64,000 nucleotides of DNA, from contig NZ_CP110644.1 in NCBI RefSeq assembly GCF_026153515.1, positions 1,517,501-1,581,500 of the forward strand, written 5' to 3'. Both the position numbers and the translations under genes were made by a program. Positions 930 to 41,981 of this stretch are shown here, in pieces. Under the pieces are notes generated by a model. The model was not told the origin of the DNA. It saw only the letters and a program-made list of their open reading frames with translations, and made no database searches. The stretch is from Pseudomonas sp. KU26590 (GTDB taxonomy: Bacteria > Pseudomonadota > Gammaproteobacteria > Pseudomonadales > Pseudomonadaceae). How positions within the stretch are numbered: the first letter of the stretch is position 1; every line of letters starts with the position of its first letter.

Positions 930-2027
930 TCAAACCAAATGCAGATGGTTGTCCCACAACCCTGCCGGCAGCTCCAGCGGTTTGGCGACCAGCACCGTCT
1001 CGCGGCAGTCATAGAAACGGCAGCGCCCTTGACCCGAGGTCACAACGAAGCCGTCCGGCACGGCGCCCACCCCCGCGCAGTCGGGCAGCGGTGCGTCGAG
1101 CTTCAGCGCACCGCTGTCCAGGTCCCAGATGAAGAATCGGTTGCCCCTCGGCGCGGTCAGCGCCACCAGCCGCAGGTCGTTGTGAATGGCGACGCTGGCC
1201 GTGTAATGCGCCATGGCCTGCAACTGTTGCTCCGCCACAGGGAAGGCCTGAAACGGCTGGCCCGGCCGCTTGATGGCGAGCAGCTCGGCGGATTCGTGGG
1301 AAGGCCCCATGAACTGCTGCCCCGCGACGATGGTGCCGTCGCTGGCGATCGCCATATGCCGCACGCTGTTCATCTGCTGCGACAACGTCTCTTTGCTCAG
1401 CAGCGTGCCGTCGCGTTGCATCAGCACCAGACTGGGCTCCATGGCGTTGAGGTTCATTTCAACGCGGCTCTCGGCTTCGGTGCGAATGCCGCCGTTGGCG
1501 ACTACAAGGGTTTCGCCGTCCGGCATCCATGACACCTGATGCGGCCCTACACCGTGGGTGGAAATTTCCCCGGTGCGTTGCAGCCGCTCATCCACGAATC
1601 GATAGATGCCCAACAGGCCGCGGCCCGGTTCCGTGGTGTCGTTTTCGGTGGCGTACAGCCATTCGCCATCCTTGTGAATGACCGCGTGGCCGTAGAAGTG
1701 TCGATGGGGTTGCGAGGTGATGGTCTGCAGCAGACGACCGTCGCGCAAGTCGATCAGGTAACTTTCGGTCCCCGGCCGGCGCGCGACGAACAGCGCGATC
1801 GGCAGGTTTGGGTGGTTGATGATGTCGTGACAGCGCTGGGCGACGGCGGTGGCAAACACCTGCGTGCCGTCGACGCGATAACCCACGGCAAAGTGCTGGC
1901 CATTGCCGTCGTCCCGGGCGGACAGCAGCAGCGGGCTTTCGCCTTTTTTCGCGAACAGCGTCCAGCCGCCAAACGTGACGGCGCTAAGCAGCAGGCTGCC
2001 CAGACCCAGAGCCTGACGTCGCAACAT
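930..2027 (-). CDS. DUF1513 family periplasmic protein
   Basis: The protein is about 365 aa and beta-propeller-like. In pseudomonads DUF1513 proteins are encoded with imelysins and di-haem oxidoreductases and are thought to act in periplasmic iron handling; their exact role is unknown. The N-terminus MLRRQALGLGSLLLSA resembles a Tat signal (twin Arg followed by a hydrophobic run). I place the start at 2027, 2 nt past the imelysin stop, with GGTGA upstream. In-frame ATGs at 2039 and 2042 would overlap the imelysin gene and are alternatives. Repeated motifs such as DLRDGRLL and DLDSGALKL fit a propeller. It is the last gene of the cluster. Confidence 0.88.
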   Translation of the reverse strand: MLRRQALGLGSLLLSAVTFGGWTLFAKKGESPLLLSARDDGNGQHFAVGYRVDGTQVFATAVAQRCHDIINHPNLPIALFVARRPGTESYLIDLRDGRLLQTITSQPHRHFYGHAVIHKDGEWLYATENDTTEPGRGLLGIYRFVDERLQRTGEISTHGVGPHQVSWMPDGETLVVANGGIRTEAESRVEMNLNAMEPSLVLMQRDGTLLSKETLSQQMNSVRHMAIASDGTIVAGQQFMGPSHESAELLAIKRPGQPFQAFPVAEQQLQAMAHYTASVAIHNDLRLVALTAPRGNRFFIWDLDSGALKLDAPLPDCAGVGAVPDGFVVTSGQGRCRFYDCRETVLVAKPLELPAGLWDNHLHLV

Positions 2028-2028
2028 A

Positions 2029-3093
2029 TCAGTCACCATCATTGGCGTTGAAGCCCAGTTGAATGCCCAGCGCTTTGGCCAGTTCGCCTTCGTGCAGGCG
2101 ATGGACCACGTTGAGGCTGTCGTAGAAAGCGTTGAGCTGCTGGCGGCCTTCTTCGGTGGCCAGCAGATCCGCGAGCGGCGGTTTCAGCGCGGCCAGTTGT
2201 CGATTGCTCTCAGCGTAGGCGGCGTCGATCTTCTCGGCCAAAGGCTTCTGCTCCTTCGGCAACAGCCCGCGCAAACCCTTGTTATCAACGCCGGCCCAGA
2301 CGGTCTGCGCACTGGCCAGACTCGCCTGCAAGCTGCTGAGCGAGGCCTTGCTGCGCCAGGCTTCGGCCTGAAACGGCTGGGGCACGCCCTTGGTGCCACG
2401 GCCGAGCGGGGTGCCGAGCTTTTTCTTCAACGAGTCCAGCGCGGTCACTTGCACGCGCAGCAACTCGGCAATGGCTTCGTGGGAGTCGGCGTAACGCTGA
2501 TTGGGAAACTTGCTCAACTGAGCGAGCATGCCGTCGTTGCTGTTCCAGCTGTTGAGGATGTCTTCGGCCAACGCCTTCTGACGCTCGCCGATGGCCACCA
2601 GCAGCGGGCAGTAACGGGCTTTCTGCTCGGCGTTGGCCATGTCGATGTCGGCGTCGAACAGAATGTATTCATACGCCGAGAGGCCCTGAACCACCACGCT
2701 GGATTTGCCCAGGGCGTCGGCGCTGATCTGCGGCTGTGCAGTGACCAGTTGTTCCACCTGACGACCGACGAGGTTTTTCTTGTCCGGCCAGAACTGAATC
2801 TGCCAGGCGCGATTGCCTTCGGCGAGTGGGCCGATCAGCAGCGGTTGCAGCTCGGCCCAGGCTTTTTGTGCGTGGAGGAAGTCCGCGCGGGCGGTGTCCA
2901 AGTCTGATTTGCCCTGGCAGTAGGAAAGCGCACTGATCGCCAGTTGCCGGTCGGCATCGACCCAACGGCTGTAGGTCGGGAGGATGACCTGACTGGCGAT
3001 GGCGGCAGACGTCACGGCTTGCGGGTCCGACGGCGCGCACGCGCCCAGTGCCAATGCGGCGAGGCTGGTGAGCAACAACTTGGGGCGGAACAT
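2029..3093 (-). CDS. imelysin-family lipoprotein (354 aa)
   Basis: This is an imelysin/peptidase M75-like protein (EfeO/IcmP fold), expected to sit in the periplasm on a lipid anchor and act in iron binding or uptake. The signal peptide ends in the lipobox LGAC, with Cys19. The usual imelysin HxxE metal motif is degenerate: the matching place reads SAYEYILFD (residues 139-147), with Ser where His is normal and Glu142 kept. It may therefore be a non-binding or altered partner of the canonical imelysin at 5496-6851. It lies 27 nt downstream of the di-haem oxidoreductase gene and touches the DUF1513 gene, so one transcript is likely. Confidence 0.92.
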   Translation of the reverse strand: MFRPKLLLTSLAALALGACAPSDPQAVTSAAIASQVILPTYSRWVDADRQLAISALSYCQGKSDLDTARADFLHAQKAWAELQPLLIGPLAEGNRAWQIQFWPDKKNLVGRQVEQLVTAQPQISADALGKSSVVVQGLSAYEYILFDADIDMANAEQKARYCPLLVAIGERQKALAEDILNSWNSNDGMLAQLSKFPNQRYADSHEAIAELLRVQVTALDSLKKKLGTPLGRGTKGVPQPFQAEAWRSKASLSSLQASLASAQTVWAGVDNKGLRGLLPKEQKPLAEKIDAAYAESNRQLAALKPPLADLLATEEGRQQLNAFYDSLNVVHRLHEGELAKALGIQLGFNANDGD

Positions 3094-3120
3094 GCCCGAC
3101 TCCTTATCTTCAGAAATACG

Positions 3121-4548
3121 TTAGAGAGAATTCAAGAACGCCAGCAGCGCCGCGCGTTGCTCGGCGTCGAAGGCCAGCACCTGACGTTGCGCCGGCAGCG
3201 CCTCGCCGCCGTGCCAAAGCACGGCCTCCATCAGGTTGCGGGCGCGCCCGTCGTGCAGAAACTGGGTGTGGCCACTGACGGCTTGCGTCAGGCCGATGCC
3301 CCACAAAGGCGGCGTACGCCACTGTTGGCCGCTGGCCTGAAATTCGCTGAGGTTGTCGGCCAGGCCTTCGCCCATGTCATGCAGCAGCAGATCGGTGTAG
3401 GGGCGGATGACCTGACTCGCCAGCTCAGGCTCGGCGGCGTCGGCGGAGGTGGTGAATTGCGGGGTGTGGCATTGCTGGCAGCCCGCTTTGAAAAACAGAT
3501 TCTTGCCCGCCAGCACCTGCGGCTCAGCCACGTCGCGACGCGCCGGAACGCCGAGGTTGCGCGTGTAGAAAGTGATCAGCCGCAGGATGTTGTCGCTGAC
3601 TTCCGGCTCACCGTTCGGGCCATTGCCGTTGGGCGCGGCAAGGCACGCGGTCTGTGACGGCGTGCAGTCGTCGACCGGCATCAGTGTGGACGTCAGGCCC
3701 ATGTCACCCGCCAGTGCGTGGGCATTCTGCTGTTTGATGCTCGGCTGCGAGGCTTTCCAGCCGAAACGGCCGAGGACGGATTTCTGCTGCGCGTCGTCCC
3801 AGACCCAGTTGGGTTTGCCGGTAATGCCGGTGCCCTGCTCATCGTTCGGGTTGGCGTTGGCCAGAATCGCTGCTTGTGGGATGGCTTCCAGAAGCCCGAG
3901 GCCGATCATCGGCGGAGCAATGCGCGCGGAAGCTCGCGTCTGCGGGTGCATCGGGCCGTAACCGGGCTGGGTGATCTGCAGGGTAGGGCGGCGCAGGTGC
4001 ACCGGGGTGCCGTCGCGAAAATGCACGGTCATCGAATCGTAGTCGACCCGCACCTTGCCCTCAGGCGTCACGCCGGGGATGGCCATGTCCTGGAGTTGCT
4101 TGCCGTAAACGGGCTCAGGCGTCAGGCCCAACTGCTTGATGTGCTCGGCGAATGCCGGGTCGTCGGGAATCGACAGGCGCACCAGCATCGACACGGCGTT
4201 GTCGGCGCCGGACTCGGGCGGGTGGCCGCGCCCGTCCTTGATGTGGCAGTTCTGGCAGGCGTTGGTGTTGAACAGCGGACCTAGACCGTCCCGCGCGGTG
4301 GTGGTCGAGGGGGCGATCACCCAGGGATTGCGAAAGAAACTGTTGCCGACGCTGAAGTCCAGCCGCCGGGTGGGCGACAGGTTGGCCGAAGGCAGGGAAA
4401 ACGCGTTGCGGTCGCTTTTGTTGACGGTGGTGGCGCCGCCAGAACGCGACTCGCCCGGCTCGGCGGCGGTGAAACGCGGGGCGTCATCGCACCCACTGAC
4501 GGCCAGCGCCATCAGCAGGAGAAACGAAGGACGGAGCCGCGCAGTCAT
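3121..4548 (-). CDS. di-haem oxidoreductase, DUF1111 (CcP/MauG-like) lipoprotein
   Basis: A 475-aa c-type cytochrome of the DUF1111 'thiol oxidoreductase' family. Two haem-binding CxxCH motifs are visible, CQNCH at residues 98-102 and CQQCH at 357-361. The N-terminus is a lipoprotein signal ending VSGC (Cys20). The family sits next to imelysins in pseudomonads, where it probably oxidises ferrous iron or passes electrons in periplasmic iron acquisition; that role is inferred from context. It heads the three-gene run DUF1111-imelysin-DUF1513. The 139 bp upstream separate it from the AP2 gene and show no convincing Fur box. Confidence 0.92.
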   Translation of the reverse strand: MTARLRPSFLLLMALAVSGCDDAPRFTAAEPGESRSGGATTVNKSDRNAFSLPSANLSPTRRLDFSVGNSFFRNPWVIAPSTTTARDGLGPLFNTNACQNCHIKDGRGHPPESGADNAVSMLVRLSIPDDPAFAEHIKQLGLTPEPVYGKQLQDMAIPGVTPEGKVRVDYDSMTVHFRDGTPVHLRRPTLQITQPGYGPMHPQTRASARIAPPMIGLGLLEAIPQAAILANANPNDEQGTGITGKPNWVWDDAQQKSVLGRFGWKASQPSIKQQNAHALAGDMGLTSTLMPVDDCTPSQTACLAAPNGNGPNGEPEVSDNILRLITFYTRNLGVPARRDVAEPQVLAGKNLFFKAGCQQCHTPQFTTSADAAEPELASQVIRPYTDLLLHDMGEGLADNLSEFQASGQQWRTPPLWGIGLTQAVSGHTQFLHDGRARNLMEAVLWHGGEALPAQRQVLAFDAEQRAALLAFLNSL

Positions 4549-4687
4549 ACAGGTCCTGCAAAGGGGTGGAAATCGGGGCGAGCAAGCTTACCAGCCCCGT
4601 GTTTGATGAATAAGAGAGATTAGCGTTTGAAGGTCCTCTCGTAACGTGTTGTTACCAAATCATCCGCAGGAAACGGGCCGGCAAAAC

Positions 4688-5227
4688 TCATGCACCGGCG
4701 ATCTCCAGGGCCGGGTTTTCCACGAGTAATTGCATCAGGCGCCGTTCGCCCTCGACCACCTTGAACGACCGGTAGTCGCCAATCCCGTCTAGTTGCCGTT
4801 CGCGTTCGCGGATCGCCAGCTCCTTGGCCCGCTCGTAGCCGTAATGCTCGACCCTGAACGACTTGGTGACACTGCTGCCGTTGCGCAGGGTGGTCCGCGC
4901 CACCCAATAGGCGATGCCGGTGTAGCAGCGGTAGTGCACCCCCGGATAGCCGCTGGTGTTGGTGGCGATGATGCGTTGACGGATGTCGCGGCTGAGCTTG
5001 GGCAAGTGGGCCAGCAGCAACTGGTCACGGCAGGCATCGGCGGCTTGGCGTGCCGGGTCTCGGCCGCCGTAGCGGGAGAAGGAAAACAGCCGGTTGAAGG
5101 TTCTGCCGTCGCGGTAGATGGTCACCTTCCAGGCACGCGGGCCCTTGATGCCGACCAACAGGTGGATACCGTAATCGTTGGCTTTGAGCTTACTGACGCG
5201 GCGCCTTTTATTGTTTCTCTTGGGCAC
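4688..5227 (-). CDS. tandem AP2-domain DNA-binding-like protein (179 aa)
   Basis: A GTG start at 5227 is chosen because AGGAGGAG lies just upstream; the longer open frame has no such signal. The N-terminus is very basic (PKRNNKRRRVSK). Two AP2-like units follow. The first, at about residues 18-75, has W-K-V-x-I-Y-R-D-G then FSRYGG and an Ala-rich helix. The second, at about 90-140, has SGYPGVHYR, YWVARTTLRNG and an AKELAIRERE helix. Bacterial AP2 domains usually accompany homing endonucleases or integrases, but no HNH or other nuclease motif is present. It probably binds DNA; regulator or former mobile-element passenger cannot be told apart. It interrupts the iron cluster. Confidence 0.8.
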   Translation of the reverse strand: MPKRNNKRRRVSKLKANDYGIHLLVGIKGPRAWKVTIYRDGRTFNRLFSFSRYGGRDPARQAADACRDQLLLAHLPKLSRDIRQRIIATNTSGYPGVHYRCYTGIAYWVARTTLRNGSSVTKSFRVEHYGYERAKELAIRERERQLDGIGDYRSFKVVEGERRLMQLLVENPALEIAGA

Positions 5228-5495
5228 TTTCTGTCTCCTCCTGGATAGGGTGGGGTCAAGGAAGTGCGCATGATCGGCGGCGGGGCAGGCGTGTTCAATC
5301 CGACAAGGAACGAACAGGAAACGCCCTACAAAGCTTACAGACCGGTCCCCGGATAAGGCCGTTTTGGTGGGGCTTTCCGGCGTCGATTGACGGAAAAAAT
5401 GCCGGCCCGTGGTCGGGTCGGCATTCGTTTGCAGCAGGGCCGACTTCACCCCAGAAGGGGCTGCCCCACGGGTGTTGAAGCGGACGAGGAGGGGA

Positions 5496-6851
5496 TCAGA
5501 ACTCGTGGTCGGCGTTGTCCGGGTTCAGGTCGGTGATGCCCAGCTTGCCGGCCGCCTGCTCGATGGCGCCGGTCTGTTTGACCAGCGCGGCGATGGCGTC
5601 GCGCACCACCTCGTTGCCTGCTGTATTGCCCGCCGCGATGAGCTGGTCGAAATGCTCGCCCTTGTTGGCGTGGTCGACGATGACCTGCAGTTTTGCCTGT
5701 GTCGCGTCGAGGTCGGCGCGCACGGTCTGGTCGGTAGCAGCGTCTGCCTTGGCCACCAGCGACGACAGGCTTGGGCCGGTCACTTTGCTGCCGTCGACGC
5801 GGGTGTATTCGCCCAGGTAGACGTTGCGGATGCCCAGGCCGTTATAGAAGTGCGAATTGTGGGTGTTGTCGCTGAAGCAATCGTGTTCGTCCTCGCTGGA
5901 ATTGGCCTCCAGCGCGACTTTCATGCGTTCGCCCGCCAGTTCACCCAGCGACAGGCTGCCCATGCCGAACAGCATTTTGCGCAGCCCGCTCTCGCCCGAT
6001 TCGGCTTCCAGCGTGGCGCGGTAATTGTCGGCAACGCCCGGCTTCCAGTTGTTGACCATTTCTTCAAGATCGCTGACCAGCAGGTCGGTGGCGGCTTTCA
6101 GGTAGGCGCGGCGGCGGTCGTTGTGGCCGCCGGTGCCGCCCTGGCCTTCGATGTAGTCGCTGGCCGGACGCTCGCCGGCGCCAGGGCCGGTGCCGTGCAG
6201 GTCCTGGCCCCAGAGCAGGAATTCGATGGCGTGATAACCGGTTGCTACGTTGGCTTCCGAACCGCCGAGTTCGTTCAGGCTGGCGAGTTTTTCAGGGGTG
6301 ATTTCCGTGACGTCGACTTTGTCCTCGCCCACCTGCACGGACTTGTTGGCGATGATGTTGGCGGTGGCGCCTGGGTTACCCAGCGTGTGCTGGTAATCCT
6401 TGGCGACATAGTCGATCAGGCCTTCGTCCAGTGGCCATGCGTTCACTTGGCCTTCCCAGTCGTCGATGAGGGTGTTGCCGAAGCGGAACACTTCGCTCTG
6501 CATGTACGGCACGCGCGCCGCCACCCACGCTGCACGCGCTGCTTTCAGGGTCTGGTCATTGGGTGTGGCGAGGAAAGCGTCGACGGCCGTGCTGAGGTTT
6601 TTGGCCGTGGATTCGGCGTCGCTGAAGACGGCAAATACCATGTTGGCGTAATTGGCGACCACGGCTTTGGTGGCGGCTTCGCTGGATTGGGCAGGCGCTG
6701 CGGCGGAGGTCGGCGCTGGCGCCGGGGCGGCGGCTGCGGCCGGTGCAGGGGCAGGCGCTGCAGCGGCGGGCTTGTCCTTGCCTTGATCACAACCGGCCAG
6801 AGCAATAGCGACAGCCAGCAGACTTGCGGTTGCCAGGGGCATACGAATCAT
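5496..6851 (-). CDS. icmP: imelysin-family lipoprotein, IcmP-like (451 aa)
   Basis: Orthologue by context of P. aeruginosa PA4370 (IcmP, described as an insulin-cleaving metalloproteinase outer-membrane protein); related imelysins bind iron. The start at 6851 follows AGGA and gives a lipoprotein signal ending LAGC (Cys21). A low-complexity Ala/Pro linker (about residues 28-55) precedes the imelysin domain. The family motif GYHAIEFLLWGQD is intact, with His207 and Glu210. A longer open frame starts further upstream but lacks the signal at its N-terminus. A Fur-like palindrome lies 63-81 bp upstream of the start, consistent with iron control. Whether it is a true protease is uncertain. Confidence 0.9.
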   Translation of the reverse strand: MIRMPLATASLLAVAIALAGCDQGKDKPAAAAPAPAPAAAAAPAPAPTSAAAPAQSSEAATKAVVANYANMVFAVFSDAESTAKNLSTAVDAFLATPNDQTLKAARAAWVAARVPYMQSEVFRFGNTLIDDWEGQVNAWPLDEGLIDYVAKDYQHTLGNPGATANIIANKSVQVGEDKVDVTEITPEKLASLNELGGSEANVATGYHAIEFLLWGQDLHGTGPGAGERPASDYIEGQGGTGGHNDRRRAYLKAATDLLVSDLEEMVNNWKPGVADNYRATLEAESGESGLRKMLFGMGSLSLGELAGERMKVALEANSSEDEHDCFSDNTHNSHFYNGLGIRNVYLGEYTRVDGSKVTGPSLSSLVAKADAATDQTVRADLDATQAKLQVIVDHANKGEHFDQLIAAGNTAGNEVVRDAIAALVKQTGAIEQAAGKLGITDLNPDNADHEF

Positions 6852-6913
6852 GACGGAATCCTGCATCGAGAAGAGGTGTGAACGGTGGCGAACGCCAAAA
6901 AATGCTGCGACAT

Positions 6914-7065: not shown

Positions 7066-9117
7066 CTACAGCGCCTCGCTATGAGTGCGCTGCGCCTGTT
7101 TCAGGTAGACCAGCAGCTCGCGCGCCGGAAGCGGCTTGCTGTAGAAATAGCCCTGACCTTCGTGGCAACCCTCGGAAATGATGTACGCCTCTTGCTCGGC
7201 GGTCTCAACGCCTTCGGCGATGACCTGCATGCCCAGGCTTTTGCCGAGCTGGATGATGGCGCGCACGATGGTCGCGTCGTCATCGTCATCGATCAGGTCC
7301 TGTACGAAGCTCTTGTCGATCTTGATCTTGTCCAGCGGCAGGCTTTTCAGATAGCTCAACGATGAATAACCGGTGCCGAAGTCATCAATGGCGATCAATG
7401 CCCCGGAGCGGCGCAGGCTCAGCAGGTGCTGCGCGGCGGTGGTGATGTCTTCCATCAGGCCGGTTTCCGTGACTTCCAGCTCCAGGCTTCGGGGCGGCAG
7501 GCGGTAGATCTGCAGCAGGTTGTTCACCACCCGCGGCAGTTCGGCGTGGTGCAGCTGGACGGTGGACAGGTTCACGGCCATGCGCAGGTCACTGAAGCCC
7601 TGATCGTGCCATTCGCGCAGCTGTTTGCAGGCCTGATCCAGCACCCACTCGCCGATGGCGATGATCGTGCCGTTCTGCTCGGCCAGCGGGATGAACAGGT
7701 CCGGCGGCACGAAGCCATGTTCCGGGTGAATCCAGCGGATCAACGCCTCGACACCGACCACGCTGTGATCGCGATAGCTGATCTGCGGCTGATAGACCAG
7801 ATGAAACTGCTCGCGGGCCATGGCTTCGCGCAGGTCTTTTTCCAGCTCGCGACGCCGACGCATCTCGCTGTCGACGCTGGCGATATAAAACTGATAGCGA
7901 TTGCGCGAGCGGGTCTTGGCCAGCGTCATGGTCTGTTCGGCTTTCTGCAGCAGCTTCTCGGTGCTGTCGCCATCTTCGGGGAACAGCGTGATGCCGATGG
8001 TGGCGCGCAGACGAATCTCTTGCTGATCGACGGCGAAGGGCGCTTCCAGATCGTCGAGGATGTTCTGCGCCAGCTCGGCGGCTTCGTAGGGCTGTTCGAT
8101 ATCGGCCTGAACCAGCGCGAACTGGTCGCCGCCCAGGCGGGCAAGGGCGCCGAGGCGTCCACTGTGGCTGCGCAGTCGATCGGCGAGGGCCAGCAGCAAC
8201 TGGTCGCCGGCCTGATAACTGAATTGTTCGTTGATGCCTTTGAAGTCATCCAGGCCGACGCACAACACCGCGACGCGGTGCTGCACCTTTCCGGAGTCGA
8301 CGAGGATTTTGTCCAGCTGCTTCTGCAGTTGCAGCCGGTTGGGCAAACCGGTGAGGAAGTCGTACTGGGCCATGCGCAGCAGGCTGGATTCCGCCTCGTG
8401 GCGCAGGGTGGTGTTGCGTTCGATGGACGCCAGCAGTTGATTGGCGGTGTTGACCCAGACCCCCAACTCGTTTTTTTCGTGACCTTTGAGCAAAGGCAGT
8501 TGGTGCTCGCTGGGGCGGTCGGGGTTGATGCTGGTCAGGTGCTCGATGATTCTGGACAGCGGTTTGGTCAGCAGCCAGTGATAAACCAGGTACAACACCA
8601 GCCCCATTGCCAGCGCGCGCAACACACCGGAGATGAAGATGATGAGGGAGTTTGTGAGGAAGGTTTCGCCGTAGGTGGCGGTGTCCAGGGTGATGCGCAG
8701 GTCGCCGTAATATTCGCTGTACGGGCTGCGGCCGACCAGTTGCGTGGTGAAGCTGCGTTCCTGGCCAAGGATCAGATCGGTCAGCCAGCGGGTGGGGGTG
8801 GCGTCGAGGTCGCGGGATTTCTCGGCGAGCACCGTCTCGTTGGGATGACCGATTGACGCCAGACGCACAGCTTTGTCCTGAAACAACCCTTCGATGACCT
8901 GCATGCCCATTTCCCGGTCCAGGCTATAGACGGCCTGCGTCGACGGGTCGCGAAACATGTCGAGGATACGCGCCGCATCCGAGGCAACGGCCTGGCGGGT
9001 TTTGTACGCGTCGTAGACGATCTGTGCGCAACTGAGCACGACCCCCACAATCAGCGCTGAAAGCAGCACAACGCGAAGCAGCTTCACCGACAAGCTGTGT
9101 TTGAGTTCCAGCTTCAA
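7066..9117 (-). CDS. bifA: cyclic-di-GMP phosphodiesterase BifA (degenerate GGDEF-EAL)
   Basis: BifA hydrolyses c-di-GMP and favours swarming over biofilm in P. aeruginosa (PA4367). The order is TM1 (about 13-34), a periplasmic sensor loop, TM2 (about 155-180), a HAMP-like linker, a GGDEF domain (about 250-405) and an EAL domain (about 430-675). The cyclase site is degenerate, GGDQF at 329-333, as in known BifA. The EAL site looks active: EAL at 457-459, a conserved NLS, and DDFGTGYSS at 578-586. The length (683 aa) is normal. Translation appears to start at TTG (9117), preceded by GAAGGA with 8 nt spacing; the nearest ATG is out of frame. sodB follows upstream as in P. aeruginosa. Confidence 0.95.
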   Translation of the reverse strand: MKLELKHSLSVKLLRVVLLSALIVGVVLSCAQIVYDAYKTRQAVASDAARILDMFRDPSTQAVYSLDREMGMQVIEGLFQDKAVRLASIGHPNETVLAEKSRDLDATPTRWLTDLILGQERSFTTQLVGRSPYSEYYGDLRITLDTATYGETFLTNSLIIFISGVLRALAMGLVLYLVYHWLLTKPLSRIIEHLTSINPDRPSEHQLPLLKGHEKNELGVWVNTANQLLASIERNTTLRHEAESSLLRMAQYDFLTGLPNRLQLQKQLDKILVDSGKVQHRVAVLCVGLDDFKGINEQFSYQAGDQLLLALADRLRSHSGRLGALARLGGDQFALVQADIEQPYEAAELAQNILDDLEAPFAVDQQEIRLRATIGITLFPEDGDSTEKLLQKAEQTMTLAKTRSRNRYQFYIASVDSEMRRRRELEKDLREAMAREQFHLVYQPQISYRDHSVVGVEALIRWIHPEHGFVPPDLFIPLAEQNGTIIAIGEWVLDQACKQLREWHDQGFSDLRMAVNLSTVQLHHAELPRVVNNLLQIYRLPPRSLELEVTETGLMEDITTAAQHLLSLRRSGALIAIDDFGTGYSSLSYLKSLPLDKIKIDKSFVQDLIDDDDDATIVRAIIQLGKSLGMQVIAEGVETAEQEAYIISEGCHEGQGYFYSKPLPARELLVYLKQAQRTHSEAL

Positions 9118-9375
9118 ATGGCCATTCCTTCATCCATGCTGATAGCGGCTTGACTGCGTTCAAACACTGTCAATGCAGGCATTCGTATCAGGCGCTTCTG
9201 GCTTGCGCGTGACCCCATCAATCGGGAAAACAGTTAATACGCAGACCACTCAGGCTATCGGCACTGTGTCGGTCATACCCTGGGAAAACTTGAGCCCAGC
9301 CGTTTGAATCAGCACGAAATTTGATAGTAGTCCGCTGCCGCTTCCAGACAATACATAAACGACAAACAGAAGGCG

Positions 9376-9407
9376 AAAAAAAACCCGGACGTGCCGGGCT
9401 TTTTTTT
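9376..9407. terminator. bidirectional intrinsic terminator after sodB
   Basis: A short CCCGG/CCGGG stem-loop is flanked by an A-run on one side and a run of eight T on the other. It lies 22 bp past the sodB stop on the minus strand. The rest of 9118-9375, upstream of bifA, shows no gene. Confidence 0.8.
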
Positions 9408-9428
9408 ATTCGAGCATTCAAGCATTTA

Positions 9429-10025
9429 TCAGGCGGTGAAGCTTTTGCCTTCGAACTGCTCGGCAACGAACTTCCAGTTGACCAGGTTCCAGAACGCCTC
9501 GACGTACTTTGGACGCAGGTTACGGTAGTCGATGTAGTAAGCGTGTTCCCAGACGTCGCAGGTCAGCAGCGGGGTGTCGCCGCTGGTGATCGGGTTGCCG
9601 GCGCCGATGGTGCTGGCCAGTGCCAGGGAGCCGTCAGCTTTCTTCACCAGCCAGCCCCAGCCGGAGCCGAAGGTGCCGATGGAAGTTTTGCTGAATTCTT
9701 CCTTGAACTTGTCGAAGGAGCCGAAAGCAGCGTTGATCGCGTCAGCCAGAGCGCCAGTCGGTTGGCCGCCGGCGTTTGGCGCCAGGCAGTTCCAGTAGAA
9801 CGTGTGGTTCCAGACTTGAGCGGCGTTGTTGAAGATACCGCCCGACGAGGTCTTGACGATTTCTTCCAGAGTCTTGCCTTCGAACTCGGTGCCTGGCACC
9901 AGGTTGTTCAGGTTCACGACATAGGTGTTGTGGTGCTTGTCGTGGTGGTATTCCAGAGTTTCCTTGGAGATGTGCGGTGCCAGAGCATCATGTGCGTACG
10001 GCAGCGGAGGCAATTCAAAAGCCAT
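9429..10025 (-). CDS. sodB: iron superoxide dismutase
   Basis: Cytoplasmic Fe-SOD that dismutates superoxide to oxygen and hydrogen peroxide. The metal ligands stand at the standard places: His27, His74, Asp157 and His161 (in CDVWEHAYY). The length of 198 aa is typical. The start at 10025 follows AGGAG with good spacing and gives the family N-terminus [10 protein letters not shown]; the longer open frame is not needed. It is monocistronic, with a terminator behind. In P. aeruginosa the next upstream gene is lysE (PA4365); here the accessory peptide operon lies between them. Confidence 0.98.
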
Positions 10026-10394
10026 GGTAATTCTCCTAATCAGGTCAGTTGCGGTTTGCGCAAGGCCGATCACGGGCGGCCAGACAGAACTTACGCTGGC
10101 GAGTTTGTACTCTTTGCAGCGCAGGGGCTGGATCATAGCACCGGCCCCTGACCTTAACCACGCAACAACTGTGTGGGATAGAGGTTCCAGAGCATTGCGC
10201 TGAAATGACCGAGTGCAGGCAGCGGTCGCTCTGGCCAACGGGTGGCACGGCCGCAACTGGGCAAAATTTCTCGGCACCCATCGGTATTTTGTTAAAAAGA
10301 TTGACGGGTCAAGAGTCGAGGGTGTTTCCCCGTCCTGCTGTTTCGCCTTGCGGGCGGGAGCGCAGCGCCCGTTATCGTGCCTGCTGGCCGGTGA
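10026..10394. other. intergenic region between sodB and the accessory operon
   Basis: 369 bp without a convincing gene. On the minus strand it holds the sodB leader: a strong AGGAG before the ATG and a possible -10 TATGAT at 10132-10137 with a weak -35 about 17 bp further up. A GC-rich hairpin near 10350-10370 follows the MFS gene's stop but has no T-run, so I do not call it a terminator. No integrase remnant or direct repeat marking the island edge was seen. Confidence 0.4.
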
Positions 10395-11618
10395 TTAATG
10401 TGAGGACCCCGCCTGTGGATCTACGAGAACCGGACCGTCGGGGACACCCCATTTGTTGAGCGCATAGCCAAGCGCAGTAGCAATTAAAATGAAAATTGAA
10501 AGGCTTTCCAGAGGGGGCAGTGGTGCGTTGGAGAGGATCACGCTGACTGACCCGGCAGTCACGAACATGATGGTGCCGCCCGCTGCAGAAGACGCCCCCG
10601 CTTTTTCGCTGAACATCTCCATTGCGCGCGAGGCCGCTGCTGGCCTGACGAGGGTAGTTCCAATCGTGCAGATAATCATTGGGATGGCGACCGTGGCAAT
10701 CGAAAGCTGAAGTTGAATCATGCTGACCATGATCAACCCGGACAGCCCCGAGATCGCCAACCCTATCTTTATCTGGGCATCGATGACCAAGGTCCTGGAT
10801 AGCCGTGTAGCGACCAATCCCCCTACCACATACGCGGCTCCATAAAGTAACAGCACAAGCGCGTAGGCAAGAGACGATACCTGCAGTGTATCCAGGAAAA
10901 TAATGGGGGAGACGGCGATAAAGCCGAAGTGGCAAGAGAATGCCAGCGCGGACGTTAACCAGGAACATACAAAGGGCCTGAAGGTAACAATGTCTGCGTA
11001 GCGCGCCACGATATTGAGTTTCTCGTCTCGAGCGGATAACGGCAGATCCTGCAAGTTAGGAAAATAGAAGATGATCTGGCCTAGAAGAATGAACGCCAGG
11101 GTTGCAAATAAGTAAAAACTTCCCTGCCAGTCCAGCGCATATTGCAGATACGTCCCGAGCAAAGGTGAGAAGGAGATGCAGATGCCGCTTAAGGAAAGCA
11201 AATAGATACGAATTCTTTGCCGGTCTTCGACAGTGAATACATCCTGGACGATGGCCTGGGCTAGCACAAAGCACCCGCACCCAGCGCCTTGCACGACCCG
11301 CGCTATGGCGAAGGCGGTTTGAGTGTTTGAAAGTAGGCATCCCATAACACCCATCAGTGATATCACAAGCCCGATTTTCAACATGATGGGCCGTCCATAC
11401 TTATCTGAAAGAGGCCCGATCAAAATTTGTGAACCGGAGAACCCCACTGCGAACATTGCAACAAAAAGCGTCACCTCATTTATCTTCATTCCAAAGGCAT
11501 TTGCCAGTGCAGGGTAGGAGGGGAGCATCACATCAAGGGGGAACATGCCCAGCACAACCATTAACGAAAGCAGAAACAATGCAGACTTTTTTGAGGACGG
11601 TCCGGCCGGTTTGTTCAT
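10395..11618 (-). CDS. MFS transporter, DHA1 (Bcr/CflA-like), exporter of the peptide cluster
   Basis: A 407-aa protein with about 12 hydrophobic segments and the DHA1 motif A-like PLSDKYGRPIMLK after TM2, plus the motif C-like GICISFSPLLG stretch. It resembles the Bcr/CflA drug-efflux group, so proton-driven export of a small molecule is the likely activity. It starts 7 nt after the diiron oxygenase stop and is the last gene of a tight operon. The inferred role is export of, or self-protection against, the product made by the peptide, SagB and AurF-like genes. Base composition is AT-richer than the flanking core genes. Confidence 0.85.
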   Translation of the reverse strand: MNKPAGPSSKKSALFLLSLMVVLGMFPLDVMLPSYPALANAFGMKINEVTLFVAMFAVGFSGSQILIGPLSDKYGRPIMLKIGLVISLMGVMGCLLSNTQTAFAIARVVQGAGCGCFVLAQAIVQDVFTVEDRQRIRIYLLSLSGICISFSPLLGTYLQYALDWQGSFYLFATLAFILLGQIIFYFPNLQDLPLSARDEKLNIVARYADIVTFRPFVCSWLTSALAFSCHFGFIAVSPIIFLDTLQVSSLAYALVLLLYGAAYVVGGLVATRLSRTLVIDAQIKIGLAISGLSGLIMVSMIQLQLSIATVAIPMIICTIGTTLVRPAAASRAMEMFSEKAGASSAAGGTIMFVTAGSVSVILSNAPLPPLESLSIFILIATALGYALNKWGVPDGPVLVDPQAGSSH

Positions 11619-11625
11619 GGTCTAT

Positions 11626-12600
11626 TCAACTGTCGTTTAGTGAGAGAAGTCCAGCATCAACGAAGCGTTCTACATTCTGAGTGTCTTTAAAAAAACCGCT
11701 GCGCTTCATTGCCGTTATTGTCGCGGTGCAGCCCGCTTTTGCTCTGACTCGGTGTGGCAAAGCTCCTTGTTGCCGTTCATGGATAATCCGCGCGCTGGTA
11801 TCGTCAATGCCCACACATCTAAGGGTTTCATACAGCCATGATGTATGCAGTCTAAAAAACTCGTAAATGGCGTGGATGATGAAGGTTGAAATGAACGTCT
11901 GCTGAGCAGTCGACGCGCGTTGCCAGACAATGCTAAACAGATTGGAAAAATAGAGAGAGTGTTTTAGTTCATCCTCTAGGTGGTCACGAAGCATCAGGTA
12001 GACGGGTTGGTATATAGTTGCCTTGGAGATTTTGAGGAATTCTTTGGTGATCACGGTCTCTGAGACGAAGCCGATGATGAACCAGGCCAGTTCAGTGTGG
12101 ACCGGGTCAACGGTGCGTGCCAGTGCACGAATATTCTGAACACGCTCAGACGCTATCTCGCGGTTCTCGATACGGTAAACAGTGCATACTTGATTAGCCA
12201 CGGCTGCTGAAATCACGGCATGGTAGGCTTCATCTGCATACAATTTCAGCCCTGTCAGCTTCAGCGCCGGAGATAATCCAAAACCGACTCGATCATGGGC
12301 GATTGAGAGAATCGAGCGATTGACAATCCGAGTCTCCAGTTCAGTTGTATAGTCTAAAAACATCACTAGATACCTCGCCAGCAATGCCTGCCTGACCTCT
12401 TCTCCGCGGGAGTGAACGGCTTCGTCAGCCAGCCAGGGAAGCGCGGTTGGCACAAACCAGTCCTTGCGGAGTTCTCCTTCCCGTGTCCAGCCTGAAAGGT
12501 CATAGGCATAAGGTTGCGAGCGTACGGTAGAAGCCTTGTCCCAGTCTCCAAAGACCATCAGCGCGTCGCGTTCAGTCTTGGCACAGCTGTTAATCATCAT
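11626..12600 (-). CDS. AurF-type diiron N-oxygenase-like protein
   Basis: Resembles the AurF family of non-haem diiron oxygenases, which turn amines into hydroxylamines or nitro groups. The ligand pattern of that family is visible: Glu89 (or Glu87) in TTELETR, ExxH at Glu124/His127 (YADEAYH), Glu181 in FVSETV, His207, and ExxH at Glu211/His214 (LEDELKH). The length of 324 aa is normal. Its ATG overlaps the SagB-like stop (ATGA), so the two are translationally coupled. Its substrate is unknown; the genetic link suggests that it acts on the 26-aa peptide or a piece of it. AurF-like enzymes also occur in Pseudomonas mangotoxin and leudiazen loci, but the NRPS partners of those are absent here. 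Confidence 0.85.
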   Translation of the reverse strand: MMINSCAKTERDALMVFGDWDKASTVRSQPYAYDLSGWTREGELRKDWFVPTALPWLADEAVHSRGEEVRQALLARYLVMFLDYTTELETRIVNRSILSIAHDRVGFGLSPALKLTGLKLYADEAYHAVISAAVANQVCTVYRIENREIASERVQNIRALARTVDPVHTELAWFIIGFVSETVITKEFLKISKATIYQPVYLMLRDHLEDELKHSLYFSNLFSIVWQRASTAQQTFISTFIIHAIYEFFRLHTSWLYETLRCVGIDDTSARIIHERQQGALPHRVRAKAGCTATITAMKRSGFFKDTQNVERFVDAGLLSLNDS

Positions 12601-13688
12601 TGGGTACTCTCCCCGTTGGCGTGCAGTTCTTCCAGGGCTGTCGGCATATCCCGGCCAGTGCTGACGCCGGCACCGACAAACAGAAGGGGTGCTGACCGGT
12701 CGAGATGATTCATGACTGGCTCCAGACAGGATTCATCAATCGCTGCAGAGACCCACGTACCAAGACCCAATGAAGTCGAGACGAGCTGCACGGTTTGCGA
12801 TATATGACCTGCATCAAGAAGCGCTACGCGGTAGGCTCTTGAATGAGGATACTTCCACCAGAGGCGGTCGAACTGGCAGGTTAGAAAGATTCCGAAGGGG
12901 ATGTCCTCTGCGAAAAACTGTCCATTGAGTGCTCTACCTATACTAAAGTCACGGTCGCTGCTGATTAACTCCAAACGGTGGCACGCAGGATTGTAGTAAT
13001 AGAACCCTGCAGGAATCTCTGCCACGTTTCTGATGTAAACGTATCCGTCGATCGAGTTGAGCCCACCGCCTGAGGGACTGCTCCTGCGATCTCGCAGCCC
13101 CTCGGGACACAGCTTACTAACGTCGGCAGACCGCGAAGGTAAGTAAGCGAGGGAGTAATAAAGTATCGACTCAAGTTGTTTTTTTGTGATCGCCTCCTGC
13201 AGGAACTCTCTTACGCTGCGACGTTGGAGTAATGTCTGTTGCAGGTCATGGGTTTGAGCGGTGCCAGGGACATCCAACTCAATGCTATTTATTATCTTCC
13301 TGCCTTGAGCTTCATGCCTTAATTTTGGAACAGGCACTTCGACTGCGTTGTCGCAGGCAGCCTGGTACGCAATTGCCCACTCCCGAGTGTTGTTTGGCTG
13401 CTCTGCATAGTCGATACGACTTGTCCCAAAATGGAAAATCTTGGAAAGATCATCCCACCCCCAATCAACCACGGGAAATGAATGCTCCGCCAACAGACCC
13501 GTCGCGAGCAGGTCATGATCGATTGCATGATCCTTGTCCGGATCTTCATGGGGATTCTGACTGAGGTGCAATAACCGTGAAAGGTACGCTTGGGGAATGG
13601 AATACTGCTTGTGCGCAGCGTAGTCCCATAGCACCAGTTGGTTGTTCTTGATCAGGAAAAAAATGGTTGAGCTGATATAGGATGGCAC
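12597..13688 (-). CDS. SagB/ThcOx-type flavin-dependent peptide dehydrogenase
   Basis: A 363-aa nitroreductase-fold protein of the SagB type. These FMN enzymes oxidise azolines to azoles in thiazole/oxazole-modified peptides. Visible signatures are RRSVREF (156-162), SPSGGGLNS (204-212), YRVALLDAGHISQT (286-299) and GLGTW (308-312). The N-terminal 140 residues are more variable. No YcaO cyclodehydratase or docking protein is present, so azole formation is unlikely, and the enzyme may dehydrogenate another bond. It lies directly after the peptide gene and its terminator and overlaps the AurF-like gene by 4 bp. Whether it acts before or after the diiron enzyme cannot be told. Confidence 0.87.
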   Translation of the reverse strand: MPSYISSTIFFLIKNNQLVLWDYAAHKQYSIPQAYLSRLLHLSQNPHEDPDKDHAIDHDLLATGLLAEHSFPVVDWGWDDLSKIFHFGTSRIDYAEQPNNTREWAIAYQAACDNAVEVPVPKLRHEAQGRKIINSIELDVPGTAQTHDLQQTLLQRRSVREFLQEAITKKQLESILYYSLAYLPSRSADVSKLCPEGLRDRRSSPSGGGLNSIDGYVYIRNVAEIPAGFYYYNPACHRLELISSDRDFSIGRALNGQFFAEDIPFGIFLTCQFDRLWWKYPHSRAYRVALLDAGHISQTVQLVSTSLGLGTWVSAAIDESCLEPVMNHLDRSAPLLFVGAGVSTGRDMPTALEELHANGESTQ

Positions 13689-13711
13689 TGTTCTCTTCCA
13701 TGAGGCACTTT

Positions 13712-13746
13712 AAAAGAAAAAAAGCCCGGAAGTATCACTTCCGGGC
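13712..13746 (-). terminator. intrinsic terminator/attenuator between the peptide gene and the enzyme genes
   Basis: On the minus strand a perfect 10-bp stem (GCCCGGAAGT with its complement) and a 3-nt loop are followed by a U-rich run. It starts a few bases after the peptide stop and ends about 25 bp before the SagB-like start. Such partial terminators are common after precursor-peptide genes: they give much peptide mRNA and less enzyme mRNA by read-through. Confidence 0.85.
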
Positions 13747-13753
13747 CCGCACG

Positions 13754-13834
13754 TCACTTGCTCGGCGTTTTCACCGGGCTTGCAAGTTGAGTCCAGTTTG
13801 CCAAGGCTTTAGATTCAAGATTGATAACGGTCAT
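13754..13834 (-). CDS. 26-aa peptide, candidate modified-peptide precursor
   Basis: A small gene starting at 13834 with a textbook ribosome site (TAAGGA, 7 nt spacing). The peptide begins MTVINLESK, has a central NWTQL and ends in ASPVKTPSK, with no cysteine. A strong intrinsic terminator follows at once, then a SagB-type dehydrogenase, an AurF-type oxygenase and an exporter. This layout is typical of RiPP clusters. The Lys/Ser/Thr/Pro-rich tail is the likely core, with Lys side chains as possible N-oxygenation targets; that is inference. A longer version with in-frame upstream ATGs (48 or 60 aa) is possible, but those starts lack ribosome sites. I know of no described family for it. Confidence 0.65.
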   Translation of the reverse strand: MTVINLESKALANWTQLASPVKTPSK

Positions 13835-13880
13835 GGTGCTTTCCTTATCTAATTGACGGGCCGAACCATTCGGCAGCGCT

Positions 13881-13909
13881 AGATTTGAATATATTTCCAT
13901 GTGTGTCAA
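13881..13909 (-). promoter_or_regulatory. candidate promoter of the peptide operon
   Basis: A perfect -35 TTGACA lies at 13904-13909 (minus strand). At 17 bp spacing the -10 is only AAATCT (13881-13886), a weak match. The stretch 13835-14130 is conspicuously AT-rich and is otherwise empty apart from the open frame discussed among the findings. Confidence 0.4.
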
Positions 13910-14130
13910 CAATGTAATTAGAAAGTTTAAATTCATATTTTGGTGCGTTGCGGGTGCGCGGTGCACAATCGAGGTGCTTGAACTTTATGCCATCGGTAGG
14001 TGGTTGTTGATGTTCAATATTTTTGTGCGCCAAGTGAGTGCGGGGGTTATAAGCAACTCTCTTGCGACAGAAATATACGGCCGGATTGTCAGGTCAGTGA
14101 TGTCATGCCCGGTGTTGGCGAGAAGCCTGA

Positions 14131-14733
14131 TTACGCCGTTCTGATCAACTGCACCGCCACGCTGAACATCATCATCGCGACCATCAGGTCCAGCAGGCGC
14201 CAAGTAGTGGGGCGTGCCAGCCACGGGGCCAGCCAGGCAGCGCCGATCGCCAGCGTCGAAAACCACAACACTGAAGCGCTGGCCGCCCCGGCCACATAGG
14301 CGCCGGGCACTGCTTGCTGTGCGCCAAGCGAGCCGATCAGCAGCACCGTATCGAGATAAACGTGCGGGTTCAGCAAGGTCACCGCCAGGGCGGTCAGCAG
14401 TACCGCGCGGCGTGAGCGCTGGCCGTTGATATCGCCCTGAGCGAGGCTCTGCGGCGACAACGCGCGGCGCAAGGCCATGGCGCCGTACCACAGCAGAAAC
14501 ACCACGCCGCCCCAGCGCGCCACCGCCAGCAGCGTGGGGTTATGGGCCAGCACATTGGCCAGCCCGAACACGCCGGCGGCCACCAACAGGGCGTCGCACA
14601 CGATGCACAGCAAGGCCACGGAAAGGTGGTGTTCGCGACGCAGACTTTGCGCCAGCACGTAGGCGTTCTGGGTGCCGATGGCCATGATCAGCCCGAGGGA
14701 AACCAGCAGGCCGTTGAGGTAGCTTTGCCACAT
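14131..14733 (-). CDS. LysE/ArgO-family amino-acid exporter
   Basis: A 200-aa inner-membrane protein with about six hydrophobic segments. LysE/ArgO proteins export basic amino acids (Lys, Arg and analogues). The family features AIGTQNAYVL near the N-terminus and TLLNPHVYLDT in the middle are present. It lies 36 nt downstream of an ACT-domain gene, and both are divergent from an ArgP-type LysR regulator, the classic pairing in which ArgP switches on the exporter when internal basic amino acids rise. It matches PA4365 in context. Confidence 0.92.
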   Translation of the reverse strand: MWQSYLNGLLVSLGLIMAIGTQNAYVLAQSLRREHHLSVALLCIVCDALLVAAGVFGLANVLAHNPTLLAVARWGGVVFLLWYGAMALRRALSPQSLAQGDINGQRSRRAVLLTALAVTLLNPHVYLDTVLLIGSLGAQQAVPGAYVAGAASASVLWFSTLAIGAAWLAPWLARPTTWRLLDLMVAMMMFSVAVQLIRTA

Positions 14734-14769
14734 GATGTCGGGCCTCGTTCAGTTCAGGGGTGGACGCGA

Positions 14770-15168
14770 TCAGGCGCTCGTGGCCAGTGTGCGCAAGGTG
14801 GTCATGGCCTTCTGCGCGTCGTCCTTACCCACGAAAAGGTGGTCGTGGTAAAAGCCCGCGACTACGTTGCAACTGATGCCCGCCTGGCCCAGTGCGCTGG
14901 CGAACGCTGCGGTCAGCCCGACTGCCGCCAGTGAGGAATGCACGGTCAGGGTGATCCAGGCCATGACGTAATCGCAGTCCAGGCCCAGTCGCTGTGCCTG
15001 GCTGCGTTCGAGGATGATGGTCAGGCCCTCGCGCTCCCGGAAGCTGCCGATCACCTCGACGCCCTGCACCTGGCTGCCGTCAGCCACTGTGCAGAACACG
15101 TAGTCACCGTCGTTCAGTTCGGGGTCCATGCTGCGCAGCAATGCGTTGAGAGAGGTTTCGCCAGTCAT
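14770..15168 (-). CDS. ACT-domain protein (132 aa)
   Basis: A small cytoplasmic protein of the ACT/DUF2241-like type. ACT modules bind amino acids and regulate partners. Conserved stretches include DGDYVFCTV, FREREGLT and, in the ACT core, LAAVGLTAAFASALGQAGISCNV (shortened here: LTAAFASALG then GISCNVV). I choose the ATG at 15168; in-frame ATGs 18 and 81 bp upstream are alternatives, and none has a strong ribosome site. It is transcribed with lysE, so a role as amino-acid sensor or modulator of export is plausible but unproven. Confidence 0.85.
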   Translation of the reverse strand: MTGETSLNALLRSMDPELNDGDYVFCTVADGSQVQGVEVIGSFREREGLTIILERSQAQRLGLDCDYVMAWITLTVHSSLAAVGLTAAFASALGQAGISCNVVAGFYHDHLFVGKDDAQKAMTTLRTLATSA

Positions 15169-15277
15169 TGTTAGTTCGCCGTTCATTGAGGGTGTGCCGT
15201 GAATCAGTGTTGGCGATTGTTGCTCTACACCGAGTATAAGAAAAACCAATAAAACTCATCACCCATTAGAGAAACTG

Positions 15278-16177
15278 ATGTTCGACTACAAACTGCTTTC
15301 CGCGCTGGCGGCGGTGATCGAGCAAGCCGGCTTCGAGCGTGCCGCTCAGGTGCTCGGCCTATCGCAGTCGGCGGTATCCCAACGTATCAAGCTGCTGGAG
15401 GCGCGGGTCGGTCAGCCAGTGCTTGTCCGGGCGACGCCGCCCACGCCGACAGAGATCGGCCGCAGGCTGCTCAACCATGTGCAGCAGGTGCGCTTGCTGG
15501 AGCGGGATCTGCAGAGCGTGGTGCCGGCGCTGGATGAAGGCGGCATGCCCGAACGTTTGCGCATCGCGCTGAATGCCGACAGCCTGGCCACCTGGTGGGC
15601 CCTCGCGGTCGGGGACTTCTGTGCCGAGCATCAATTGCTCACGGATCTCGTGGTCGAGGATCAGGACGTCGGCCTCAAACGCATGCGCGCCGGTGAAGTG
15701 GCCGCGTGTCTGTGTGGCAGTGAACGGCCGGTGGCGGGGGCGCGGAGTGTATTGCTCGGGGCCATGCGTTATCGGGCGTTGGCCAGCCCTGACTTTATTG
15801 ACCGGCATTTCCCACAGGGCGTGACGCCGCAGGCGGTGGCCGGATCGCCCGCGCTGGTGTTCGGCCCGGATGATTTCCTGCAGCACCGCTACCTCGCTTC
15901 CCTGGGGGTCGAAGGCGGTTTCGAGCATCATTTGTGTCCTTCTTCCGAAGGTTTCACGCGCATGGTCGAAGCCGGAATGGGCTGGGGCCTGGTGCCGGAA
16001 TTGCAGGTCCGTGGGCAATTGGCGAGCGCTCAGTTGGTCGAGTTGCTCGCCGATCACTGCATCGATGTGCCCCTGTACTGGCATCATTGGCGCAATGGCG
16101 GTCGGTTGCTCACAGAGCTGACGGACCATCTGGTGAAAAAAGCAGGGCAGTGGCTGGTGCCGTTGCAAGCCAAGTGA
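15278..16177 (+). CDS. argP: LysR-family regulator ArgP (IciA)
   Basis: A 299-aa LysR-type transcription factor. The N-terminal winged helix-turn-helix is clear (residues about 3-60: FERAAQVLGLSQSAVSQRIK), followed by a periplasmic-binding-like effector domain. ArgP controls argO/lysE in response to Arg and Lys. The divergent position, 109 bp from the ACT-lysE pair, supports the assignment; the shared region is AT-rich. It matches PA4363. Confidence 0.93.
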   Translation: MFDYKLLSALAAVIEQAGFERAAQVLGLSQSAVSQRIKLLEARVGQPVLVRATPPTPTEIGRRLLNHVQQVRLLERDLQSVVPALDEGGMPERLRIALNADSLATWWALAVGDFCAEHQLLTDLVVEDQDVGLKRMRAGEVAACLCGSERPVAGARSVLLGAMRYRALASPDFIDRHFPQGVTPQAVAGSPALVFGPDDFLQHRYLASLGVEGGFEHHLCPSSEGFTRMVEAGMGWGLVPELQVRGQLASAQLVELLADHCIDVPLYWHHWRNGGRLLTELTDHLVKKAGQWLVPLQAK

Positions 16178-36145: not shown

Positions 36146-36226
36146 GCGAATTCTCTTTAGTGGTAAGCCATTAAGTGAAAAAAGCGCGTCAAGAGGGGCG
36201 ATATGACGCGCTGGCGCAAGTTCGAC

Positions 36227-37234: not shown

Positions 37235-37561
37235 GGGTAACCTTCCGTGGTTGTTGGGTGCAACCTGAGGTTACGCGTATGAGTCGTCCGCGTTGGCATA
37301 AATATATATTGGGTACGTCACGAGGTTTAACGTGATGTTTCGTAGGGAAGTCGCCCCCAACCGGACACGGTCGCGTCGAGTCGTACCAGATTCCTTACAC
37401 TCAAACGGAAGTATCTTCGCGTCGGGCGACGGGCGCGTTGGCGAAACGCGCCGTTTCCTCTACATTGGCACTCTTCCCGGATGATCGAAGCGTTCGCTGA
37501 ACATCTTCGACCAGCGGCGCGAAGCAGGCCCCTGTGGCCGGACAGGACGAAACCCTACACG
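37235..37561. other. divergent promoter region of the Rhs operon and sadC
   Basis: 327 bp without a gene. An AT-rich patch (TAAATATATATTGG near 37299-37312) is the likely promoter of the Rhs operon on the minus strand. A 10-bp motif TGGCATAAAT at 37294-37303 recurs upstream of the delta-60 protein gene. Nothing recognisable marks the sadC promoter. Confidence 0.4.
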
Positions 37562-41859: not shown

Positions 41860-41981
41860 GCGCCACTTGATTGCTGCATGGGACGTTGTTCATGCCCATG
41901 AACGCTGGCAGTAAAAAAAATAATTCTGCTAGTGCTCACAGCGCGCCGGCGTATCAGTGAGCGACTATCACGACAGCAATA

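Follow-up and report, generated by a model that had tools for sequence, protein, structure and literature searches.

A conserved short peptide gene precedes a SagB-AurF-exporter operon in Pseudomonas: a proposed YcaO-independent peptide pathway

Introduction

What is made by an operon that joins the gene of a very short peptide to genes for a SagB-type dehydrogenase, an AurF-type diiron oxygenase and an exporter? Such an operon occupies positions 10395-13834, minus strand, of a 64,000-nucleotide stretch of the genome of Pseudomonas sp. KU26590 (contig NZ_CP110644.1, positions 1,517,501 to 1,581,500), which is called the window here. Its four genes are tightly packed, in the order 26-codon gene, hairpin, SagB, AurF and major facilitator superfamily (MFS) exporter, and the last three nearly touch or overlap each other. 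The answer proposed here, to which we assign a probability of roughly three in four, is a YcaO-independent pathway resembling those of ribosomally synthesized and post-translationally modified peptides (RiPPs). SagB would bind the start of the peptide, the AurF-type enzyme would oxidise the core, with Asn13 or a residue near it as the probable site, and export of the product would follow.

The peptide and its conservation

The window peptide, MTVINLESKALANWTQLASPVKTPSK, consists of a leader-like start, MxxINLE, and a core-like remainder that includes Asn13. The sequence AAGGA lies about 7 nt ahead of its ATG. Homologous loci were collected by running the AurF protein against 398 Pseudomonas genomes, a match with E below 1e-20 being considered strong. 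Counting the window, this gave 105 places in 103 genomes, and the DNA of all of them was analysed. The MFS gene is present at all 105 places and SagB at 102. Of the other three, one lies at a contig end and has its SagB and peptide at a separate locus (L047 and L134), one is decayed and lacks SagB (L054), and one has only a short C-terminal SagB match (L133).

The earlier note, made from the sequence alone, had named SagB-AurF pairs without a conserved short peptide upstream as the observation that would speak against a peptide pathway. The test was run, and a peptide of 21-26 residues with the motif M-K-x-I-x-L-E-x3-I-A-N was found just upstream of SagB in 102 of 102 loci. A script that looked upstream of SagB for an open reading frame fitting M-(1-3 residues)-[IVL]-x-[LMI]-E recovered 101 of these peptides. 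The last (L128), in which Gln replaces Glu7 and SagB matches in three pieces, was recognised by eye. Glu7 is present in 101 of the 102 peptides and Asn13 in every one; counts among the 101 are 101 for Asn13, 100 for Ala12, 95 for Leu14 and 97 for Leu17, position 14 being Trp in the window peptide and its sister. Outside the start and these positions the peptide varies freely. A Shine-Dalgarno-like site, loosely defined, precedes 99 of the 101 homologous genes.

The conserved positions use both Asn codons and four Ala codons. Over codons 2-17 of 97 distinct peptide sequences, the ratio of nonsynonymous to synonymous differences (pN/pS) is 0.48, with large synonymous differences (0.43): the constraint is mild, yet it acts at the level of the protein. 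The strict motif, which was derived from the family, is fitted by one of the 881 short frames of the window (18-30 residues, both strands, each start codon counted), namely by the peptide gene itself. There is thus good support for the peptide and the enzymes belonging together, and the peptide would be the precursor. A gene of this size is short enough to escape ordinary gene finding.

The enzymes

The SagB protein passes the cut-offs of the Pfam Nitroreductase profile (67.2 bits, cut-off 23.5) and of the NCBIfam SagB profile TIGR03605 (111.1 bits, cut-off 78.4). In a structural model, an N-terminal part (residues ~9-90) resembling a RiPP recognition element (RRE) is followed by the oxidase domain (~135-345), and the model superposes on the RRE-plus-oxidase part of ThcOx. 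The N-terminal part may therefore be a leader-binding domain. In the fold comparison the domain at 143-348 takes most of the matches, and the absence of stand-alone RRE chains there is uninformative.

The AurF-type protein passes PF11583 (47.7 bits, cut-off 29.6) and shares, as a model, the fold of the AurF/CmlI family. Its putative diiron ligands, E89, E124, H127, E181, H207, E211 and H214, are invariant in 25 of 25 aligned sequences; we take these seven residues to correspond to the diiron ligands of AurF itself. The exporter passes PF07690 and is nearest to the Bcr/CflA model, although below its cut-off (159.1 versus 200.9 bits). The coordinates of all features are given in Table 1.

Table 1. 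Features of the operon in window coordinates; position 13834 is the first base of the start codon of the peptide gene
Feature	Position	Strand	Basis
Proposed precursor peptide gene, 26 codons + stop, MTVINLESKALANWTQLASPVKTPSK	13754..13834	-	Reading frame; homologues by motif
Ribosome binding site AAGGA of the peptide gene	13842..13846	-	Sequence
GC-rich 12-pair hairpin + T run, between peptide and SagB genes	13722..13748	-	Folding versus shuffles
SagB/ThcOx-type flavin mononucleotide (FMN) dehydrogenase, 363 aa, GTG start	12597..13688	-	Pfam, NCBIfam, model
AurF-type diiron oxygenase, 324 aa, 4-nt overlap with SagB end	11626..12600	-	Pfam, ligand alignment, model
MFS exporter, Bcr/CflA-like, 407 aa	10395..11618	-	Profile matches

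The earlier note had described a tiny gene with a strong ribosome site and then, in one tight operon, a SagB/ThcOx flavoenzyme, a diiron enzyme with a full AurF ligand set and an exporter; the layout, the profile matches and the ligand alignment agree with it throughout. It had also noted that YcaO, LanB, radical SAM and protease genes are lacking. No YcaO match was found in the whole 6.18-Mb genome by a search that was positive in 5 of 14 control genomes, and a Pfam scan of the operon and seven neighbouring genes gave no LanB, radical SAM or typical processing-protease domain. One of the scanned neighbours encodes an imelysin (Pfam 'Peptidase_M75').

Loci without AurF and more distant classes

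Thirteen places in Pseudomonas with a SagB match but without a strong AurF match were examined. At seven of these (L062-L068) the peptide, SagB and MFS genes are present and AurF is absent. The start of the peptide is kept there, but Asn13 is found in none of the seven. Four loci have class B peptides, e.g. MEKIKLEQAVSAGHHALLGTSK, and three have class C peptides, e.g. MNAIFLESKALAAFALIGMPK, with Ala at position 13. In a tree of 116 SagB sequences, rooted on classes D and E (see below), B and C form one clade (0.99) that is nested within the SagBs of AurF-bearing loci (0.98, 0.97), so that a single loss of AurF accounts for both; deeper nodes of this tree are weak (0.33, 0.79). In a decayed locus of Pseudomonas sp. 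SDI, where SagB and AurF match in parts only, the peptide has Lys13. The gene ilvD, named by Pfam on one cluster member, lies within the analysed stretch at all seven AurF-less loci and at 20 of 34 long class A loci. Being natural loci without AurF, classes B and C allow the roles of SagB and AurF to be separated.

Six more distant loci, classes D and E, combine SagB with a carbamoyltransferase cluster and an MFS cluster, to which E adds a methyltransferase with tetratricopeptide repeats (TPR); domains were named on representatives. Their peptides are 33 or 55-58 residues long, with starts like MKRVTIE or MRKINLQ. The operons of L071, L072 and L073 (~1000-6900) encode 33-residue peptides (MRKINLQTRLTALSNNAYNTLI...), SagB, the TPR-methyltransferase, a NodU-type carbamoyltransferase and an MFS protein, and to judge from their gene content they are a related, more complex peptide pathway. 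L069, L070 and L074 have peptides of 55-58 residues (MKRVTIEPTLNNQSNDAYQTPHF...), SagB (in two pieces in L074), a NodU-type carbamoyltransferase and an MFS protein. The motif SN[DN]AY is common to the peptides of both groups of three.

The most constant part of the peptide across classes is the N-terminal MKxIxLE, and the remainder differs between enzyme sets. The start of the peptide thus follows SagB, and what comes after it follows the tailoring enzymes.

The proposed pathway

In the pathway that we propose, the short gene would encode a precursor in which the first seven residues (M-K-x-I-x-L-E) serve for recognition and all that follows is substrate. The RRE-like domain of SagB would bind the start and deliver the peptide to the flavin, which would dehydrogenate a residue. 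The AurF-type enzyme would oxidise the core, most likely at or beside the invariant Asn13. The reactions are suggested by the enzyme families: most likely a nitrogen is oxidised, as by other AurF enzymes, the alternatives being a Lys target or hydroxylation of a carbon. Host peptidases may trim the product, and the MFS protein may export the resulting small molecule or short peptide. The sequences show that the peptide and the gene order are conserved, that the enzyme families have intact ligands, what architecture SagB has as a model, and that Asn13 is missing from the AurF-less loci; from these the binding, the reactions and their order, the trimming, the export and any biological role are inferred.

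The earlier note had thought of N-oxygenation and dehydrogenation of a Lys-rich core. Its view of the operon as a peptide pathway is supported in part, by the conserved peptide, on which the enzymes would act. Lys may be the target. It occurs after position 7 in 101 of 101 peptides, at position 21 in 85 and at position 10 in 73, but no Lys position is invariant. Moreover, Lys does not track AurF, because Lys is the last residue of the seven AurF-less peptides too, whereas Asn13 does track it. This suggests a site of AurF action at or near Asn13, on the basis of one loss event and one decayed locus.

Several observations weigh against the proposed pathway. The link between AurF and Asn13 amounts to one event on the tree plus the decayed locus. 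Comparison of the SagB N-terminus with the PqqD profile, for which the PqqD frames were chosen by a crude rule, gave a weak match (P 0.031, probability 1.6%; P 0.45 and 0.68 for other pieces of SagB), and the RRE assignment therefore depends on the model. A one-piece match of at least 320 residues is present for SagB in 96 of 102 loci; five of the remaining six keep both Glu7 and Asn13. Likewise, AurF matches in one piece over at least 280 residues at 99 of 105 places, and five of the other six keep Asn13, no peptide having been found at the sixth. Decay of the enzymes thus often leaves the peptide unchanged, and the five partial AurF copies make the Asn13 site slightly less likely. Lys is frequent too, being present in all 101 cores, the operon has no protease gene of its own, and a regulatory leader peptide would likewise fit a short conserved reading frame followed by a hairpin.

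Alternative explanations

According to that last possibility, the peptide would act by arrest or attenuation, sensing a small molecule and controlling SagB, AurF and MFS proteins that act on a free metabolite. The position and size of the gene, its strong ribosome site, the hairpin with a T run in the window and the exporter at the end of the operon all fit. The hairpin (13748-13722) is stable against shuffles (z = -3.56), and of the 101 homologous intervals that separate peptide and SagB genes 90 contain a strong hairpin, compared to 28 of 101 shuffled intervals. However, a T run directly follows it in only 7 of the 101 loci. Nor is there an antiterminator signal: the 5' arm pairs with the peptide coding sequence, taken alone, no better than with shuffled sequence (-11.1 and -10.9 kcal/mol, n=90). 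The hairpin makes better sense as an element governing stoichiometry or stability than as a classical attenuator, and it probably sets the ratio of precursor to enzymes. It also counts against a regulatory leader that MKxIxLE is the most constant part across classes while the core changes with the enzyme set, and that the SagB model contains an RRE-like part. We consider a regulatory leader unlikely.

Alternatively, the substrate of SagB and AurF might be a small molecule, for instance a free amino acid, and the peptide an independent small protein, e.g. an immunity factor or a subunit of an enzyme. Relatives of AurF do occur elsewhere without SagB, e.g. in Cellulomonas beside a likely phosphoenolpyruvate (PEP) mutase gene (by eye). 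This explanation is quite improbable, given that the peptide core follows the enzyme set and that the peptide varies freely outside its few fixed positions. An ordinary thiazole/oxazole pathway with a YcaO protein borrowed from elsewhere in the genome would agree with the azole-forming pathways to which the consulted passages of PMC7726476 and PMC8795117 assign SagB-type dehydrogenases, and with the frequency of Ser, Thr or Cys at positions 5 and 8 (67 and 65 of 101 peptides). Yet the genome contains no YcaO match, the window peptide lacks Cys, which occurs in only 21 of the 101 peptides, and residues 1-20 include no conserved Ser, Thr or Cys position. An azole pathway is hardly conceivable and, barring an unrecognised cyclodehydratase, is refuted for this genome.

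Comparison with known systems

The hallmark of RiPP pathways in general, a short encoded peptide conserved as a pair with enzymes, is found at all 102 loci, where the peptide would have the precursor role. The window SagB resembles the enzymes of thiazole/oxazole-modified microcin (TOMM) and cyanobactin pathways (SagB, McbC, ThcOx and BmdC) in its FMN oxidase domain and TIGR03605 match, and may resemble ThcOx and BmdC also in its modelled RRE-like N-terminus. Of the features of TOMMs and linear azole peptides the SagB/McbC dehydrogenase is present, whereas YcaO and conserved core Cys, Ser or Thr are lacking; furthermore, SagB is accompanied here by a diiron enzyme, or by an exporter only. The putative peptide maturation dehydrogenase family TIGR04511 matches the C-terminal 200 residues of SagB, but at 117.8 bits its cut-off of 240 is not reached. 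Unlike the pathways of peptide aminoacyl-tRNA ligases (PEARLs) and LanB, the operon and its seven scanned neighbours encode no LanB-like enzyme by Pfam.

Known members of the AurF/CmlI family of diiron N-oxygenases act on free or carrier-bound amines. The AurF-type enzyme shares with them the fold and the seven ligand positions, but its gene neighbourhood ties it to a ribosomal peptide.

The nearest described Pseudomonas SagB cluster, going by the consulted part of PMC7726476, is Os1348-Os1351 of Pseudomonas sp. Os17. It comprises an 85-residue nitrile-hydratase-like peptide, an acetyltransferase, an HExxH protein and a 650-residue SagB-type protein, and its authors found no SagC/D homologue. 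It is alike in host, small peptide and SagB-type protein, yet it is a different cluster, with another gene set and no AurF named in that part. The formylaminooxyvinylglycine (FVG) gvg cluster of P. fluorescens WH6 has small reading frames under 50 aa and a carbamoyltransferase, as described in the relevant passages of PMC8064604, and in this is like the class D and E loci; the words 'SagB' and 'dehydrogenase' are absent from the main text of that paper. In its passages on RiPPs, the Pseudomonas pan-genome paper PMC8719888 mentions no cluster of this kind. Among the open-access matches listed, no description of SagB with AurF and a peptide was found, in line with the earlier note, which knew of no RiPP family combining the two enzymes.

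It is tentatively suggested, at somewhat short of even odds, that these loci represent a new class of ribosomal peptides common in Pseudomonas. A leader-binding SagB would work without YcaO, an AurF-type enzyme would oxidise an invariant Asn, and the SagB type and leader would recur with no further enzyme, with a carbamoyltransferase, or with both a carbamoyltransferase and a methyltransferase, to give a family of products. If so, AurF-type oxidation would enter ribosomal peptide chemistry, a role of SagB without azolines would be revealed, and an exported small molecule would be predicted in many species. To our knowledge, no AurF-type enzyme has previously been reported to act on a ribosomal peptide.

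Distribution and genomic setting

The operon is present in about a quarter of the sampled Pseudomonas genomes (103 of 398). SagB matches at E below 1e-20 occur in 119 of the 398, several of the weakest being pieces or domains of longer proteins. The same four genes, 85-90% identical, are found in the relative G347. In Cupriavidus basilensis the peptide MKKITLETAKMANWTQIAAPKKK precedes SagB, AurF and MFS; its core is by eye the closest to that of the window peptide, and its SagB clusters with the window SagB (support 0.975). A scan of named genomes with the Cupriavidus AurF gave 11 loci, two of which (L139, L141) seem to repeat the contigs of L046 and L052. SagB lies at least in part upstream in seven of the 11, each with the peptide. 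In the other four (L140, L142, L143, L144) AurF is not accompanied by SagB, and other contexts that lack SagB hold AurF relatives with 27-32% identity to the query. In one of them, Cellulomonas iranensis (L142, 5470-8915), the AurF relative lies beside genes resembling PEP mutase, phosphonopyruvate decarboxylase and aldehyde dehydrogenase (by eye), possibly a phosphonate pathway with an N-oxygenase.

At the level of the phylum, SagB was found at E 1e-40 in 9 of 398 genomes. Five are Pseudomonas, and only G440 of the other four has a near full-length match. G440 is also the only one of 297 genomes of its family with SagB at E 1e-50, and within 9 kb of its locus class A peptide and AurF are both absent. 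There were no matches of SagB in a plasmid collection (E 1e-40) or of AurF in a phage collection (E 1e-10). Genome G188 has two copies of the system (L053, L047, L134), one on a 2.1-Mb and one on a 51-kb contig. The 51-kb contig carries peptide and SagB at one end and AurF and MFS at the other, and these two halves of the operon suggest that it is a circular element.

The operon is flanked by a Fe/Mn superoxide dismutase gene on one side and a LysE-type exporter gene on the other. No Rfam match at gathering scores was found in 9000-15500. A second AurF relative of the same genome (G000:C1:540897-541469, L002) is 25% identical, and many of the 398 genomes have matches that are about as weak. 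The G+C content of the operon is 0.51-0.52, lower than in the adjoining 2-kb steps (0.58 and 0.63), and the operon was therefore probably acquired. Low-G+C stretches of the window, possibly acquired islands, lie at 10001-14000, 36001-38000 and 40001-42000 (0.50-0.54 versus ~0.6 for most of the window).

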